In this document: positions 3,725 through 38,355 of the stretch, piece after piece
Layout: every line of letters starts with the position of its first letter
How positions within the stretch are numbered: the stretch's first letter is position 1
Source: a virus
IMG/VR virus record: IMGVR_UViG_3300040801_000659
Coordinates: 1-38,355 of that record
Length of the DNA: 38,355 bases
Reading direction: 5' to 3' (one strand)
The notes under the pieces: model-generated
Databases searched by the model: none
What the model was told of the DNA's origin: nothing
Seen by the model: the letters and a program-made list of their open reading frames with translations, nothing else
Program-made: the position numbers and the translations under genes

Positions 3725-4272
3725 GGTTTATATATAAATATCGGTTTGTTATTCTTGTCAAATGTAGTCCATGATACAACATAAAATTCTGCTTGCCCGT
3801 TTTGGTTGATGCCTGTATGCTTTGTAGTACATTCTCCAATATCAATTAACTCAATTATATCCTCTGTTTTAGCTACGGCAAACGACAATAAAGATTCTTC
3901 TTCATCTAAATAGGCCTGCATGGTGTAATAAGGATAAAACAATTCTCCCCCACTTTCAATAGCTTCTTTTCTCTTTTGATATTCTGTTTTAACTCCACTT
4001 TCACGACTCTTTCTTACGGTAAATGTGTTCCAGCTTTTTTTACATTTCGGTTGTATTCTACTTGCTAATCCTCCCATCCCTGTGGAGTTAGAAAAAAATG
4101 CATCCACCCCAACATTTACATCTAACATATACGCTAACTCCTCGGTACTATTAGCTTCAACACTTGTAACGGTTTTAAACTTATTGTACCTTTGAAGTAA
4201 AGGCTTTACTAACTCCTCAAAATGCCTTGCGGTATCACTTAAACAATCCTTAAATTTCCTTCCTGCATCCAC
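3721..4272 (-). CDS. Hypothetical protein, possible PD-(D/E)XK-type nuclease
   Basis: 183 aa, soluble. A core region reads DVNVGVDAFFSN (D57) followed by GLASRIQPKCK (Q74-x-K76), which fits the D...(D/E/Q)xK active-site spacing of PD-(D/E)XK nucleases, and then FTVRKSRESGVKTEYQKR. These features match a family of uncharacterised phage proteins I recall only loosely. It overlaps the DNA methyltransferase gene by 23 bp, so a modification/cleavage pairing is imaginable, but a target-recognition domain is not visible. The stop overlaps the next start as ATGA. The nuclease assignment is inferred and weak. Confidence 0.5.
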   Translation of the reverse strand: MDAGRKFKDCLSDTARHFEELVKPLLQRYNKFKTVTSVEANSTEELAYMLDVNVGVDAFFSNSTGMGGLASRIQPKCKKSWNTFTVRKSRESGVKTEYQKRKEAIESGGELFYPYYTMQAYLDEEESLLSFAVAKTEDIIELIDIGECTTKHTGINQNGQAEFYVVSWTTFDKNNKPIFIYKP

Positions 4273-5329
4273 GTTTTTCAGCTATTTGTATTGCGTCTTC
4301 ATCTATATCACATCCGGCAGCAAAACGACTGTATTCACTCGCTGCTAATAAGAAAGTACCAGTACACGCAAAGGGATCTATAACTTTGTCCCCCGGTTTG
4401 GTTGTGTGTGTTATTAACCTTTCAGCTAACTTGTCTGGTTTCTGCCAAGTATGGTATCTATCACCTATGCGCCCATCAGGTGCATTAATATCCTGGACTG
4501 AAAACATTTCATTTGTTATTCTATTGTCCAACGGTAAAGATGTTTCTTTATATAGGTGAAGTATTACCTGATAGTTTAAATTGTATTTCATCTTTGGAGT
4601 TTGCCCTAATGTATTACGATAAGTCCAAATTAAAGGGTTATCTACTATCCAATCAGTTTCTAATAAATACCCCAAATAAGTATACATTTCAATAGGGTAA
4701 GCACCTATGCATATAAAAGCCCTGCCGGTATCTTTCACCTTTGAGAGCGCGTCATATAACCAAGTGTCAAGAAATGAGGGCAAGTCTTCAATATCGGTTG
4801 AGTATGGGGGATCAGTTATAAGTAAGTCAATACTTTTATCTTCATACCTCGTCAAAAATTGCGTACAATCTTCATTATATATAGAAGGTGCTTTTGCCTT
4901 TCTTTCTGCATCTCGTTCGGCTTGTGCCTCATCTATTTCTTTAGCTTTTATAGCCTCTCGTAAAGCAGACACGCTCCAACGTTGTTCAACCGCCTCCCTT
5001 AAAAAATACTCTTGCTGTTCTGGCGAGAGTTTAGCGACTTCATGGTGGTGTGAATAAGGCAATTCGTTTAGACGTCTAAACCTTTTAATAGCATTGCAAA
5101 CATAAACATATGTTTTCAACGTCTGCTTCTCTATCCCCGTAAGCTCTGCCACCCTGTCGTAAATGCCGCGCTGAATGTATCCCTTGCCCTCACCTTCAAG
5201 AATTTTATCACCTATAAAAAACTGTACGTGTCTTTCAATAGTGCCTAAATTAATAAGCTGAGACTCCCATTCTTGTCTCGAATTAGCCTCTATCCTCAAA
5301 GGTAAGCTATCTTGTGTTTGTGTCTCCAT
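4250..5329 (-). CDS. DNA N6-adenine/N4-cytosine methyltransferase with N-terminal ParB-like HTH
   Basis: 359 aa. Residues ~20-135 form a helical domain (YDRVAELTGIEKQTLKTYVY, HHHEVAKLSPEQQ) like ParB/KorB-type or DUF3102 helix-turn-helix regions. The catalytic domain has motif IV DPPY (173-176), QKP (296-298, in HTWQKPDKLAERLI) and the SAM-binding motif I DPFACTGT (318-325). This order, IV before X/I, marks the beta class of amino-methyltransferases. It probably methylates phage DNA in the cytoplasm, either to evade host restriction or to mark the origin; its HTH domain may supply specificity. The start overlaps the stop of the upstream small ORF as TAATG. Confidence 0.9.
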   Translation of the reverse strand: METQTQDSLPLRIEANSRQEWESQLINLGTIERHVQFFIGDKILEGEGKGYIQRGIYDRVAELTGIEKQTLKTYVYVCNAIKRFRRLNELPYSHHHEVAKLSPEQQEYFLREAVEQRWSVSALREAIKAKEIDEAQAERDAERKAKAPSIYNEDCTQFLTRYEDKSIDLLITDPPYSTDIEDLPSFLDTWLYDALSKVKDTGRAFICIGAYPIEMYTYLGYLLETDWIVDNPLIWTYRNTLGQTPKMKYNLNYQVILHLYKETSLPLDNRITNEMFSVQDINAPDGRIGDRYHTWQKPDKLAERLITHTTKPGDKVIDPFACTGTFLLAASEYSRFAAGCDIDEDAIQIAEKRGCRKEI

Positions 5330-5481
5330 TAATTCAATGATGTTTTAATATATTCTTCTAACCGTATTTCGTTAAGGTAGAAGTCCGTAATTAAGAATCC
5401 CCCGTTTTCTAAACAATTAAAATCAGACTCCCAAGTATCGGACTCTACCATCCGCAGATCCTTCTTACCCCTGTATAGCAT
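5329..5481 (-). CDS. Small acidic protein, 50 aa
   Basis: MLYRGKKDLRMVESDTWESD..., ending EEYIKTSLN. The TAA forms TAATG with the methyltransferase start, and the 5' end overlaps the upstream gene by 17 bp, so it fills an otherwise empty gap in the operon. An internal in-frame ATG at 5451 would give a 40-aa form. No family recognised; it could be a coupling ORF or a small regulator of the methyltransferase. Confidence 0.55.
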   Translation of the reverse strand: MLYRGKKDLRMVESDTWESDFNCLENGGFLITDFYLNEIRLEEYIKTSLN

Positions 5482-5692
5482 TTTTAATAGCAGCTCTTAT
5501 CTCTGTTATTAACTCGCTTTTGTTCTTCGCATACCTGTCCCAGTACCATATATAACTCCCGGTTGTCTGCGTTAACTCATTGTGTTTTGCAAGGTAGTCG
5601 ACTTTGACAGCGTCAAGTACAATTTTGCCGTCCGCGTCATTTACATTTTCGTCACCCGTAAGCGGGTACATTTCTAAAATTTCTATCTCCAT
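5465..5692 (-). CDS. Hypothetical acidic 75-aa protein, first gene after the structured RNA
   Basis: The product begins MEIEILEMYPLTGDENVNDA and ends IRAAIKNAIQG. ATG 5692 is preferred over the in-frame GTG at 5713, which would lie inside the terminator-like stem at 5711-5720. It is acidic and probably alpha/beta; no family recognised. It is the first gene of the leftward replication operon after promoter 5811-5839 and the 113-nt RNA, so its expression probably depends on read-through of that structure. Confidence 0.65.
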   Translation of the reverse strand: MEIEILEMYPLTGDENVNDADGKIVLDAVKVDYLAKHNELTQTTGSYIWYWDRYAKNKSELITEIRAAIKNAIQG

Positions 5693-5693
5693 A

Positions 5694-5806
5694 CTAAAAA
5701 AATTAAAGCCCACCAGGGGGTGGTAACGTTAGCACTTAGAAAAGTGGTAAGTCCCCCCGGTGAGCTTGTATTAATAATTAATTTGTGCATTTCGCTAACG
5801 TTACCC
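5694..5806 (-). ncRNA. Candidate structured leader or small RNA with interleaved stems and U-tract
   Basis: Read on the minus strand. Stem A pairs 5805-5794 (GGTAACGTTAGC) with 5733-5722, 12 perfect base pairs. Stem B pairs 5762-5753 (CACCGGGGGG) with 5720-5711 (CCCCCTGGTG), 10 pairs including one G-U. A small hairpin CACTT-TTCT-AAGTG occupies 5746-5733. The order A-B-A'-B' means A and B form either a pseudoknot or two alternative folds. Stem B is followed by GGCTTTAATTTTTTT, as in an intrinsic terminator, and then by ATG 5692. The expected start of transcription (about 5806-5804) coincides with the first base of stem A. It may be an attenuating leader or an independent RNA. No known Rfam family comes to mind. 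Confidence 0.55.
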
Positions 5807-5810
5807 AATA

Positions 5811-5840
5811 CAAATATAGTAATTTATTTTATAATTCAAA
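5811..5840 (-). promoter_or_regulatory. Bacteroidetes-type promoter for the structured RNA and replication operon
   Basis: On the minus strand: TTTG (5840-5837), 18 nt, TATATTTG (5818-5811), matching the Bacteroidetes -33 TTTG / -7 TAnnTTTG pattern. The spacer is two bases shorter than in the five other promoters noted here. The -33 TTTG is the end of the T-tract of the upstream terminator, so the two elements overlap. The predicted +1 is at 5806-5804, at the start of stem A. Confidence 0.75.
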
Positions 5841-7224: not shown

Positions 7225-7311
7225 AAAAAATATCCTCACGCTTTCCCCGTGGCGGCGGGTACTAACGCAAGGATTTAATAAGTTTATTAGAGCCCGCCAA
7301 CTCATAATATA

Positions 7312-7342
7312 CAAATTTATATTTTATTTTTTGAATATGCAA
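7312..7342 (-). promoter_or_regulatory. Promoter of the HNH gene, with structured 5' leader
   Basis: On the minus strand TTG (7342-7340), 20 nt, TAAATTTG (7319-7312). The predicted leader is about 80 nt; in it GGCGGG (7298-7293) can pair with CCCGCC (7259-7254) around a 33-nt loop. Such leaders can restrict translation of homing endonucleases. The promoter sits just after the exonuclease stop at 7359. Confidence 0.75.
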
Positions 7343-37715: not shown

Positions 37716-38162
37716 CTATTTGTTTAAGTGGTTTAGTAAGTCCTCAACGAGTTGATGCAGTTCAGCATAACTGAAGTCTGTTTTACTTTGAAGGTTATAA
37801 TTGAATAACCATTCCTGTAAATACTCCTCAATTTCATGTTCGTTCATTATTTCATCTTCCTCACTCACTTTTTCTTTGGGTTGGTCGGAGAACAACTCAA
37901 GTATTCTATTGCCTAAAATATCACAGGCATCTGACCACCCTTCATTGTATTCTGAAAACGAATCCCTGTTACCCGATTCCTTGTAGGGGTGCATATCTTC
38001 AACCTGTTCAATTATCTTTTCAACGCTCAGCTTTTCTTTGGGTTGGTCTTCGATAAACCTATCAATAGCCTGCTCATCGCATGAAAACGTTTCGCTGGTC
38101 ATTTTCTTGAAGTTCTCGTAGGCTATTAATATCTCTCTCAGCGTACTTAAATCTTTGTCCAT
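37716..38162 (-). CDS. Acidic 148-aa protein, paralogue of the 1-214 gene
   Basis: The N-terminal ~45 residues (MDKDLSTLREILIAYENFKK) are nearly identical to the 1-214 product. The remainder is longer and acidic (SEYNEGWSDACDILGNRIL, EEYLQEWLFNYNLQSKTDFS), with QPKEK appearing twice as a short repeat. Start ATG 38162. It opens the operon of small early genes. Function unknown. Confidence 0.75.
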   Translation of the reverse strand: MDKDLSTLREILIAYENFKKMTSETFSCDEQAIDRFIEDQPKEKLSVEKIIEQVEDMHPYKESGNRDSFSEYNEGWSDACDILGNRILELFSDQPKEKVSEEDEIMNEHEIEEYLQEWLFNYNLQSKTDFSYAELHQLVEDLLNHLNK

Positions 38163-38355
38163 TTTTTCACATATTTAAGTTATACTTGTGAATTTCGTTT
38201 ATACCTCGTGAATTTCGTTTAGAAATTATATGTAATTAGTATCGTTTTTCGCTACTTTTCTCAAATTATATCTGTTTACGTATACTTACGTTACGTAATT
38301 TTACGCATTTGCACGTTCATATTTCTAATCCGTTAACGTATTCGTGAACATTATA
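38163..38355. promoter_or_regulatory. Upstream control region with repeats at the right edge
   Basis: 193 bp without a gene. It contains two copies of GTGAATTTCGTTTA (38188-38201 and 38208-38221, 20 bp apart) and the second copy of the 76-bp repeat (38280-38355) with TTACG words and an imperfect GTTAACG-TATT-CGTGAAC inverted repeat. No promoter with the TTG-N20-TAnnTTT pattern is visible. The array suggests binding sites for a regulator or replication protein. Confidence 0.55.

Follow-up and report, generated by a model that had tools for sequence, protein, structure and literature searches.

A candidate attenuator RNA with interleaved stems at the head of a phage operon, and a probable class of such leaders in phages of Bacteroidetes

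Background

Regulatory RNAs of Bacteroidetes phages have hardly been described so far. On the minus strand of a viral genome (IMG/VR record IMGVR_UViG_3300040801_000659, positions 1 to 38,355; this whole stretch of 38,355 bases is called the window below), a promoter, two interleaved stems and a U-rich tract follow one another directly ahead of a gene start. An initial annotation, based on the letters of the window and its open reading frames, had seen here either a riboswitch-like attenuator or a compact small RNA. The locus raises the question of whether this arrangement is a genuine structure, whether it recurs in other phages, and how it could act on the gene behind it. In this work we address these points through chance tests, a search for relatives by layout, covariation analysis and comparison with known regulatory systems.

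Results

Architecture of the element

The locus sits on the minus strand between the gene for an 83-aa protein (6232-5981) and the gene for a 75-aa orphan protein, and it is composed of the following parts:

5811..5840, minus strand: Bacteroidetes-type promoter, TTTG (5840-5837), 18 nt, then TATATTTG (5818-5811); direct reading and consensus match
5793..5805, minus strand: arm A5' of stem A, GGTAACGTTAGC (5805-5794), at the predicted 5' end of the RNA
5753..5767, minus strand: arm B5' of the terminator stem, AAGCTCACCGGGGGG, forming 15 contiguous pairs with 5720-5706
5733..5746, minus strand: small hairpin C in the terminator loop, CACTT-TTCT-AAGTG, seen in the minimum free energy (MFE) fold
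5722..5734, minus strand: arm A3' of stem A, GCTAACGTTACC (5733-5722), within the loop of stem B
5706..5720, minus strand: arm B3' of the terminator stem, CCCCCTGGTGGGCTT, one base past A3'
5696..5707, minus strand: U-rich tract TTTAATTTTTTT at the end of stem B, predicted intrinsic terminator; direct reading
5683..5790, minus strand: leader ORF of 35 codons, MHKLIINTSSPGGLTTFLSANVTTPWWALIFLVWR and stop, running across both stems and the U tract
5465..5692, minus strand: gene for the 75-aa orphan protein (ATG 5692), first of the presumed controlled operon, with no convincing family match
4250..5329, minus strand: N6_N4 DNA methylase, two genes downstream of the element; family and orthologue search

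The consensus reported for Bacteroidetes promoters places TTTG at -33 and TAnnTTTG at -7 (PMC7366714), and the predicted promoter of the element fits it at the location given by the initial annotation. The same annotation had transcription starting exactly at the first base of stem A, which lies 5 nt past the -7 box. The promoter itself holds up; the exact base, read off the -7 box only, and its identity with the first base of the stem are predictions.

Direct reading bears out the perfect 12-bp stem A (5805-5794 with 5733-5722), which reaches 13 pairs if a G-U at 5793/5734 is counted. Stem B, originally described with 10 pairs, is present and longer, extending to 15 contiguous pairs of which two are G-U. 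The arms follow one another in the order A5', B5', A3', B3', with an A/U-rich stretch of 25 nt separating A5' from B5', so that the two stems interleave as proposed; the last base of hairpin C is also part of arm A3'. The U tract (5707-5696) and then the ATG at 5692 come after the second stem, again as annotated, and a terminator scan marks a shorter CCACCCCCTGGTGG hairpin at the position of stem B and the U tract. By stacking energy stem B is the strongest of the region (-32.9, against -23.8 for A), and the MFE fold consists of stem B alone with A unformed (-35.2). The claim that the RNA must form a pseudoknot or switch between two folds is thus too strong, since it could stay in B alone.

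Further observations concern the surroundings. On the minus strand, immediately upstream of the element and past the 83-aa gene, positions 5976-5842 carry four arms, AUAGGGGUAU, GUACCCCUGU, CGGGGGUAGG and CCUACCCCC, followed by a U tract; the arms could pair first with second and third with fourth, or second with third, resembling a classical attenuator set, and a CCGAAAGG tetraloop hairpin lies inside it. Elsewhere in the window, positions 1-300 and 38055-38355, at the two ends of the record, hold similar, non-identical copies of the end of one gene with intergenic sequence and may represent a duplication or a variant terminal repeat. The protein encoded at 626-1408 has a long repeat of low complexity built from GSYNMGSSNRGS-like units.

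Chance expectation

Shuffled sequence is expected to contain 0.3 perfect 12-bp inverted repeats with a gap of at most 120 nt per window, and the window contains one, stem A; taken alone, stem A is therefore weak evidence. Its combination with stem B is another matter. When B was held fixed and the 62 nt upstream of it were shuffled 20,000 times, no shuffle matched the strength of A, and the interleaved stems with their U tract, scoring -64.3, lie beyond all 400 dinucleotide-shuffled windows searched on both strands, the best of which reached -52.5. A plain fold of the element gives a z-score of -3.6. The structure of the element is well supported.

Recurrence of the layout

The window as a whole has no useful DNA relative in the phage collection, and searches by sequence were of little help. 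Exact 15-mers of the element occur at 44 loci in IMG/VR, none with the second arm close by; blastn of the element against the fetched loci and phages returned nothing useful; no relatives of the 75-aa gene were found; and a DnaA-like alignment was set aside as a query for being too divergent. We fetched relatives of the upstream 83-aa gene and of the downstream methylase and scanned them by layout instead of sequence, a stem having to be followed by a T-rich tract (at least 5 T in 8).

In many of these loci the same parts recur in the same order with unrelated sequence. Six orthologues of the window methylase have an element directly upstream (L010, L011/L167, L013, L014/L170, L016, L017). The usual plan runs from the promoter to a 5' hairpin, then to the terminator hairpin, the U tract and the gene, the loop of the first hairpin (A5') complementing the apical loop of the second (A3'); the window element is a long-arm variant with a long stem A and only a weak 5' hairpin. 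Complementary loops are, for example, AGUAGAGG with CCUCUACU in L170, UGUGCG with CGCACA in L171, or GUGGUGC with GCACCAC in L085. In most members the loop of the 5' hairpin would thus kiss that of the terminator.

A further member lies in the window itself:

7225..7319, minus strand: second class member, with -7 box TAAATTTG (7319-7312), U tract, then ATG 7224

It has the kissing form, with a 5' hairpin GAGU[UGGCGG]GCUC (7303-7290), a terminator stem B at 7274-7264/7242-7232 and, within the terminator, CCCG[CCGCCA]CGGG (7259-7246), which complements the 5' loop. Its score of -47.9 is reached by 11 of 400 shuffled windows. The gene behind it (7224) is HNH/NUMOD4 by Pfam. The HNH frame stays open upstream across the whole of this member, and a sub-threshold Rfam match to cyano-S1 (27.6 bits, cut-off 39.9) covers its start.

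Altogether, 26 members with the same order of parts were listed, and 25 of the 26 A5' arms differ. A -7 box of the TATATTTG type precedes most of the other members; membership is less secure for some of those listed without an exact box (L005, L123, L135, L143, L085). Spacing is confined to 5-20 nt between promoter and A5' (members with an exact -7 box) and to 75-124 nt between A5' and ATG, while the distance from terminator stem to ATG is 6-40 nt in every listed member (n = 26). The longest stems have 22 pairs, and many tracts contain 7-9 T.

Three tests gauge how far the recurrence exceeds chance. In 1.03 Mb of viral DNA, eight sites were picked only by promoter, terminator energy (≤ -15) and following gene, and seven of them carry an A arm at p ≤ 0.05, with 0.4 expected. 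Across 1.07 Mb, a full-model score of ≤ -42 with a following gene was found 28 times on two strands against once on one shuffled strand, an excess due in part to the smaller number of ORFs in shuffled DNA. Finally, 866 kb fetched after the idea had been formed yielded four matches with promoter and gene at ≤ -44 (0.0 per shuffle) and eight at ≤ -32 (1.3 per shuffle). This last set includes clear members in three cultured phages: ahead of P2559S_48 in Croceibacter phage P2559S, ahead of PHG11b_62 in Flavobacterium phage 11b, and ahead of the gene for the replication protein in Polaribacter phage P12002L; the set scanned first holds one in Tenacibaculum phage JQ, which lacks an exact -7 box. No convincing member was seen in phiST (first 50 kb), phi40:1 (first 50 kb), P12024S or B124-14, and 974 kb of one flavobacterial chromosome gave counts at the level of shuffled sequence, with no promoter and gene match at ≤ -36. 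Many scan matches lacking a promoter, in GC-rich or coding DNA, were attributed to chance and not accepted. The class is probably a widespread, undescribed gene switch in phages of Bacteroidetes.

Covariation

The initial annotation had named compensatory changes in both stems as what would support its reading, and such changes are found among class members. The covariation is drawn from these members and not from direct orthologues of the window element, because the window copy has no close relative. Three orthologous loci (L002, L190 and L191) are alignable, with 66-70% identity to L002 across the element. Twelve of their 20 pairs show double-sided changes (8 of 12 in A, 4 of 8 in B), none is broken, and 100% of cells are paired, counts that come from an arms-only alignment fitted to the structure, for which a slide control guards in part: when the partner is shifted by one base, pairing falls to about 41%. 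The arms were aligned on their own since MAFFT, applied to the whole element, placed a gap inside A5'.

The methylase-linked loci L016 and L170 are 93% identical over the 120 nt before the promoter box, and their hairpins are rewritten with pairing kept. Both elements stand before a ParB-methylase gene, where the hairpins and kissing loops between near-identical flanks are completely rewritten, suggesting that the element either diversifies quickly or is exchanged as a module. Two features were also seen in L002. A GIY-YIG-like endonuclease gene (5039-5477) lies between the element and the sequence found directly behind the element in L191 (6474-6653), as if it had been inserted just behind the terminator, and a tRNA-like 3' part (GCAGGTTCGAATCCTGC..., then a T tract) occupies about 4950-4990, downstream of the relative of the 83-aa gene.

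The leader ORF

In the window, the leader ORF, which the initial annotation does not mention, begins at 5790, 3 nt past the 12-bp arm A5', and its stop at 5683 overlaps the start of the 75-aa gene. Of 21 members, 8 have an ORF with its start in the stretch from A5' to B5' and its stop at most 12 nt from the next start, where shuffles predict 1.2; this enrichment is somewhat overstated because the rule was set after the first examples had been seen. L190, L191 and L002 each keep the frame open. Such an ORF is missing from roughly half of the members, so it is not the general trigger but a feature of one sub-type that comprises the window element, L002, L190, L191 and others. Control by a leader peptide was accordingly dropped as a universal explanation and kept for the variant in the window. 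By inspection, no run of one amino acid that could represent repeated regulatory codons is common to the leader peptides.

Discussion

Proposed mechanism

With moderate confidence, we interpret the element as a cis-acting transcription attenuator heading a phage operon, in which pairing of the 5' arm or loop with the terminator loop, and here also translation of the leader ORF, would set the level of read-through. RNA polymerase would start at the TAnnTTTG promoter and produce a leader of about 115 nt, whose 5'-terminal arm A5' would pair with the apical loop of the terminator, A3', just ahead of the gene. This pairing would either compete with terminator stem B or lock it as a pseudoknot, and the balance of A and B would determine the fraction of transcripts that enter the gene. 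In the variant of the window, a timely ribosome at 5790 would keep A and B open, giving read-through with translational coupling; with the ribosome late or absent, A would hide the start region and B would terminate.

The order of synthesis is compatible with this scheme. Pairing of the 5' arm or loop can form first because A3' emerges ahead of the second half of the terminator stem. In a stepwise fold limited to nested pairs, A is complete (12 bp) when the RNA ends at 5720 and B overtakes it at 5711. A can thus precede B and then compete with it or lock it, being complete before most of B3' exists. As B alone is the MFE fold when no pseudoknot term is included, A may matter only transiently. 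Termination, the effect of pairing upon it, the direction of that effect and the role of the ORF are all steps that we infer from the letters, from which the sign of the interaction between A and the terminator is not readable. The complete divergence of sequence between members likewise leaves no ligand or protein site identifiable.

Alternative explanations

Promoter, premature intrinsic terminator and gene follow one another on one strand in the window and in the other members, and any gene transcript from the element promoter must read through the terminator, which is the layout of an attenuator. The main alternative is that the element yields a stable, independent phage small RNA with a pseudoknotted body, about 110 nt long and active in trans, while the next gene depends mainly on read-through or on transcription from upstream. 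It would have its own promoter and terminator and a compact fold; its loops, being self-complementary, might pair with sister copies, or with RNA from other phages, and their divergence between the near-identical phages L016 and L170 recalls plasmid antisense systems. However, the terminator stem ends 6-40 nt before the gene start in every listed member and there is no common target sequence, and it is this short gap between U tract and ATG throughout the class that leads us to favour the attenuator and to regard the small RNA as unlikely. Of the two options offered by the initial annotation, the attenuator type is hence retained; its riboswitch-like character, in the sense of ligand binding, is not supported, there being no conserved pocket sequence.

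Somewhat less probable, in our assessment, is a purely translational switch, in which the stems would hide the starts of leader ORF and gene, expression would proceed by termination and reinitiation, comparable to repY/repZ of IncI plasmids, and the U tract would be an A/U-rich initiation region. The position of the leader ORF in the window, beginning right past A5' and ending across the next start, is what such a switch would look like, and both the excess of leader ORFs among members and the open frame in L190, L191 and L002 agree with it. Yet a stem and T-rich tract are present in all members, even those without an ORF (a consequence of the scan rule), though stems of as many as 22 pairs and runs of 7-9 T occur frequently among them.

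We put at a similarly low level the possibility that the element belongs to a large class of phage leader RNAs that geometry alone defines, in which the 5' loop complements the terminator's own loop, loop sequences diversify quickly among near-identical phages, and terminated leaders also act in trans on sister transcripts, gauging phage copy number or excluding related co-infecting phages. Terminated leaders could act in this manner because the loops are self-complementary and specific, and the idea could be likened to the plasmid antisense RNAs that set copy number and incompatibility.

That the A arms are two palindromic DNA operators, repressor sites at +1 and +72 whose pairing is a by-product, was rejected as very improbable: both arms do contain TAACGTTA, but as an inverted repeat they agree at 12 of 12 positions and as a direct repeat at only 10, the arms of other members are non-palindromic and have other sequences in the corresponding position, and two more copies of TAACGTTA occur elsewhere in the window. 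Chance pairing beside an ordinary terminator, to which the expected frequency of 12-bp repeats would lend itself, is the least credible of all in view of both shuffle tests, the recurrence and compensatory changes in relatives, and the fact that no alignable orthologue has the arms present but non-complementary.

The attenuator reading, if true, would describe a compact terminator switch with freely variable specificity loops, offering a testable route by which phages couple the expression of their genes to translation or RNA dosage. Lying upstream of DNA methylase, primase-like and homing-endonuclease genes, the class bears on the timing of DNA modification and replication.

Comparison with known systems

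The window has no Rfam match at gathering threshold, a permissive search gives only sub-threshold matches at the element, and ten loci with other members return only a tRNA. The class escaped family searches because its pairing plan alone is conserved and not its sequence; any phage genome can be scanned for that plan. No description of the class was found in the literature, where search coverage of subscription papers is poor.

Several known systems share part of the design. Leader-peptide attenuators of the trpL type likewise place a short ORF over alternative stems and a terminator before a gene; their neighbouring hairpins share a segment, whereas the arms of the element interleave, and the element has no common run of regulatory codons, its ORF starting directly past the first arm and stopping beyond the terminator. 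In the repY-repZ system of IncI/IncK plasmids, a leader ORF overlaps the next start and a 5' hairpin loop pairs over a long range with a downstream region; there is no terminator, pairing activates translation under control of an antisense RNA, and the system is not from phage. Both traits, the overlapping leader ORF and the long-range pairing of a 5' loop, are shared with the element, but only the element has a predicted terminator. Type III toxin-antitoxin loci (ToxIN/CptIN) similarly line up a promoter, a pseudoknotted RNA, a terminator and a gene. They were rejected as an explanation, the element having no tandem repeats and the 75-aa protein no family match; across the class, the downstream genes encode methylases, HNH proteins, primase and others instead of a toxin of the ToxN fold. 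A HEARO/omega-RNA was discarded because the HNH gene is of the NUMOD4 type, and a riboswitch with a conserved pocket because members have no conserved sequence in common. In attenuators of the pT181 type, whether the terminator forms is decided through the 5' hairpin loop of the growing leader, which serves for recognition. The partner of that loop is a separate antisense RNA there (PMC3753616), and in the element it would be the terminator's own loop.

Parallel logic is known from the guanidine-IV riboswitch (the mepA motif), which acts as a transcriptional ON switch and sets a leader kissing loop against a terminator: loop-loop pairing hinders completion of the terminator stem and leads to read-through (PMC11611296). 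Most members of the class have, at the level of sequence, a 5' loop that complements the terminator loop, with covariation seen among members, and a comparable competition may take place in them. They differ from the riboswitch in lacking an Rfam match and a conserved ligand-binding sequence, in the genes they precede, in their fully variable loops and, for many, in having a leader ORF. By analogy, the element would work like the guanidine-IV riboswitch, though with no ligand involved, and is not a member of that family. Attenuators based on competition between a loop and a terminator are thus already known, and what appears to be undescribed is a sequence-free version of them in phages, with a sub-type that carries a leader ORF.
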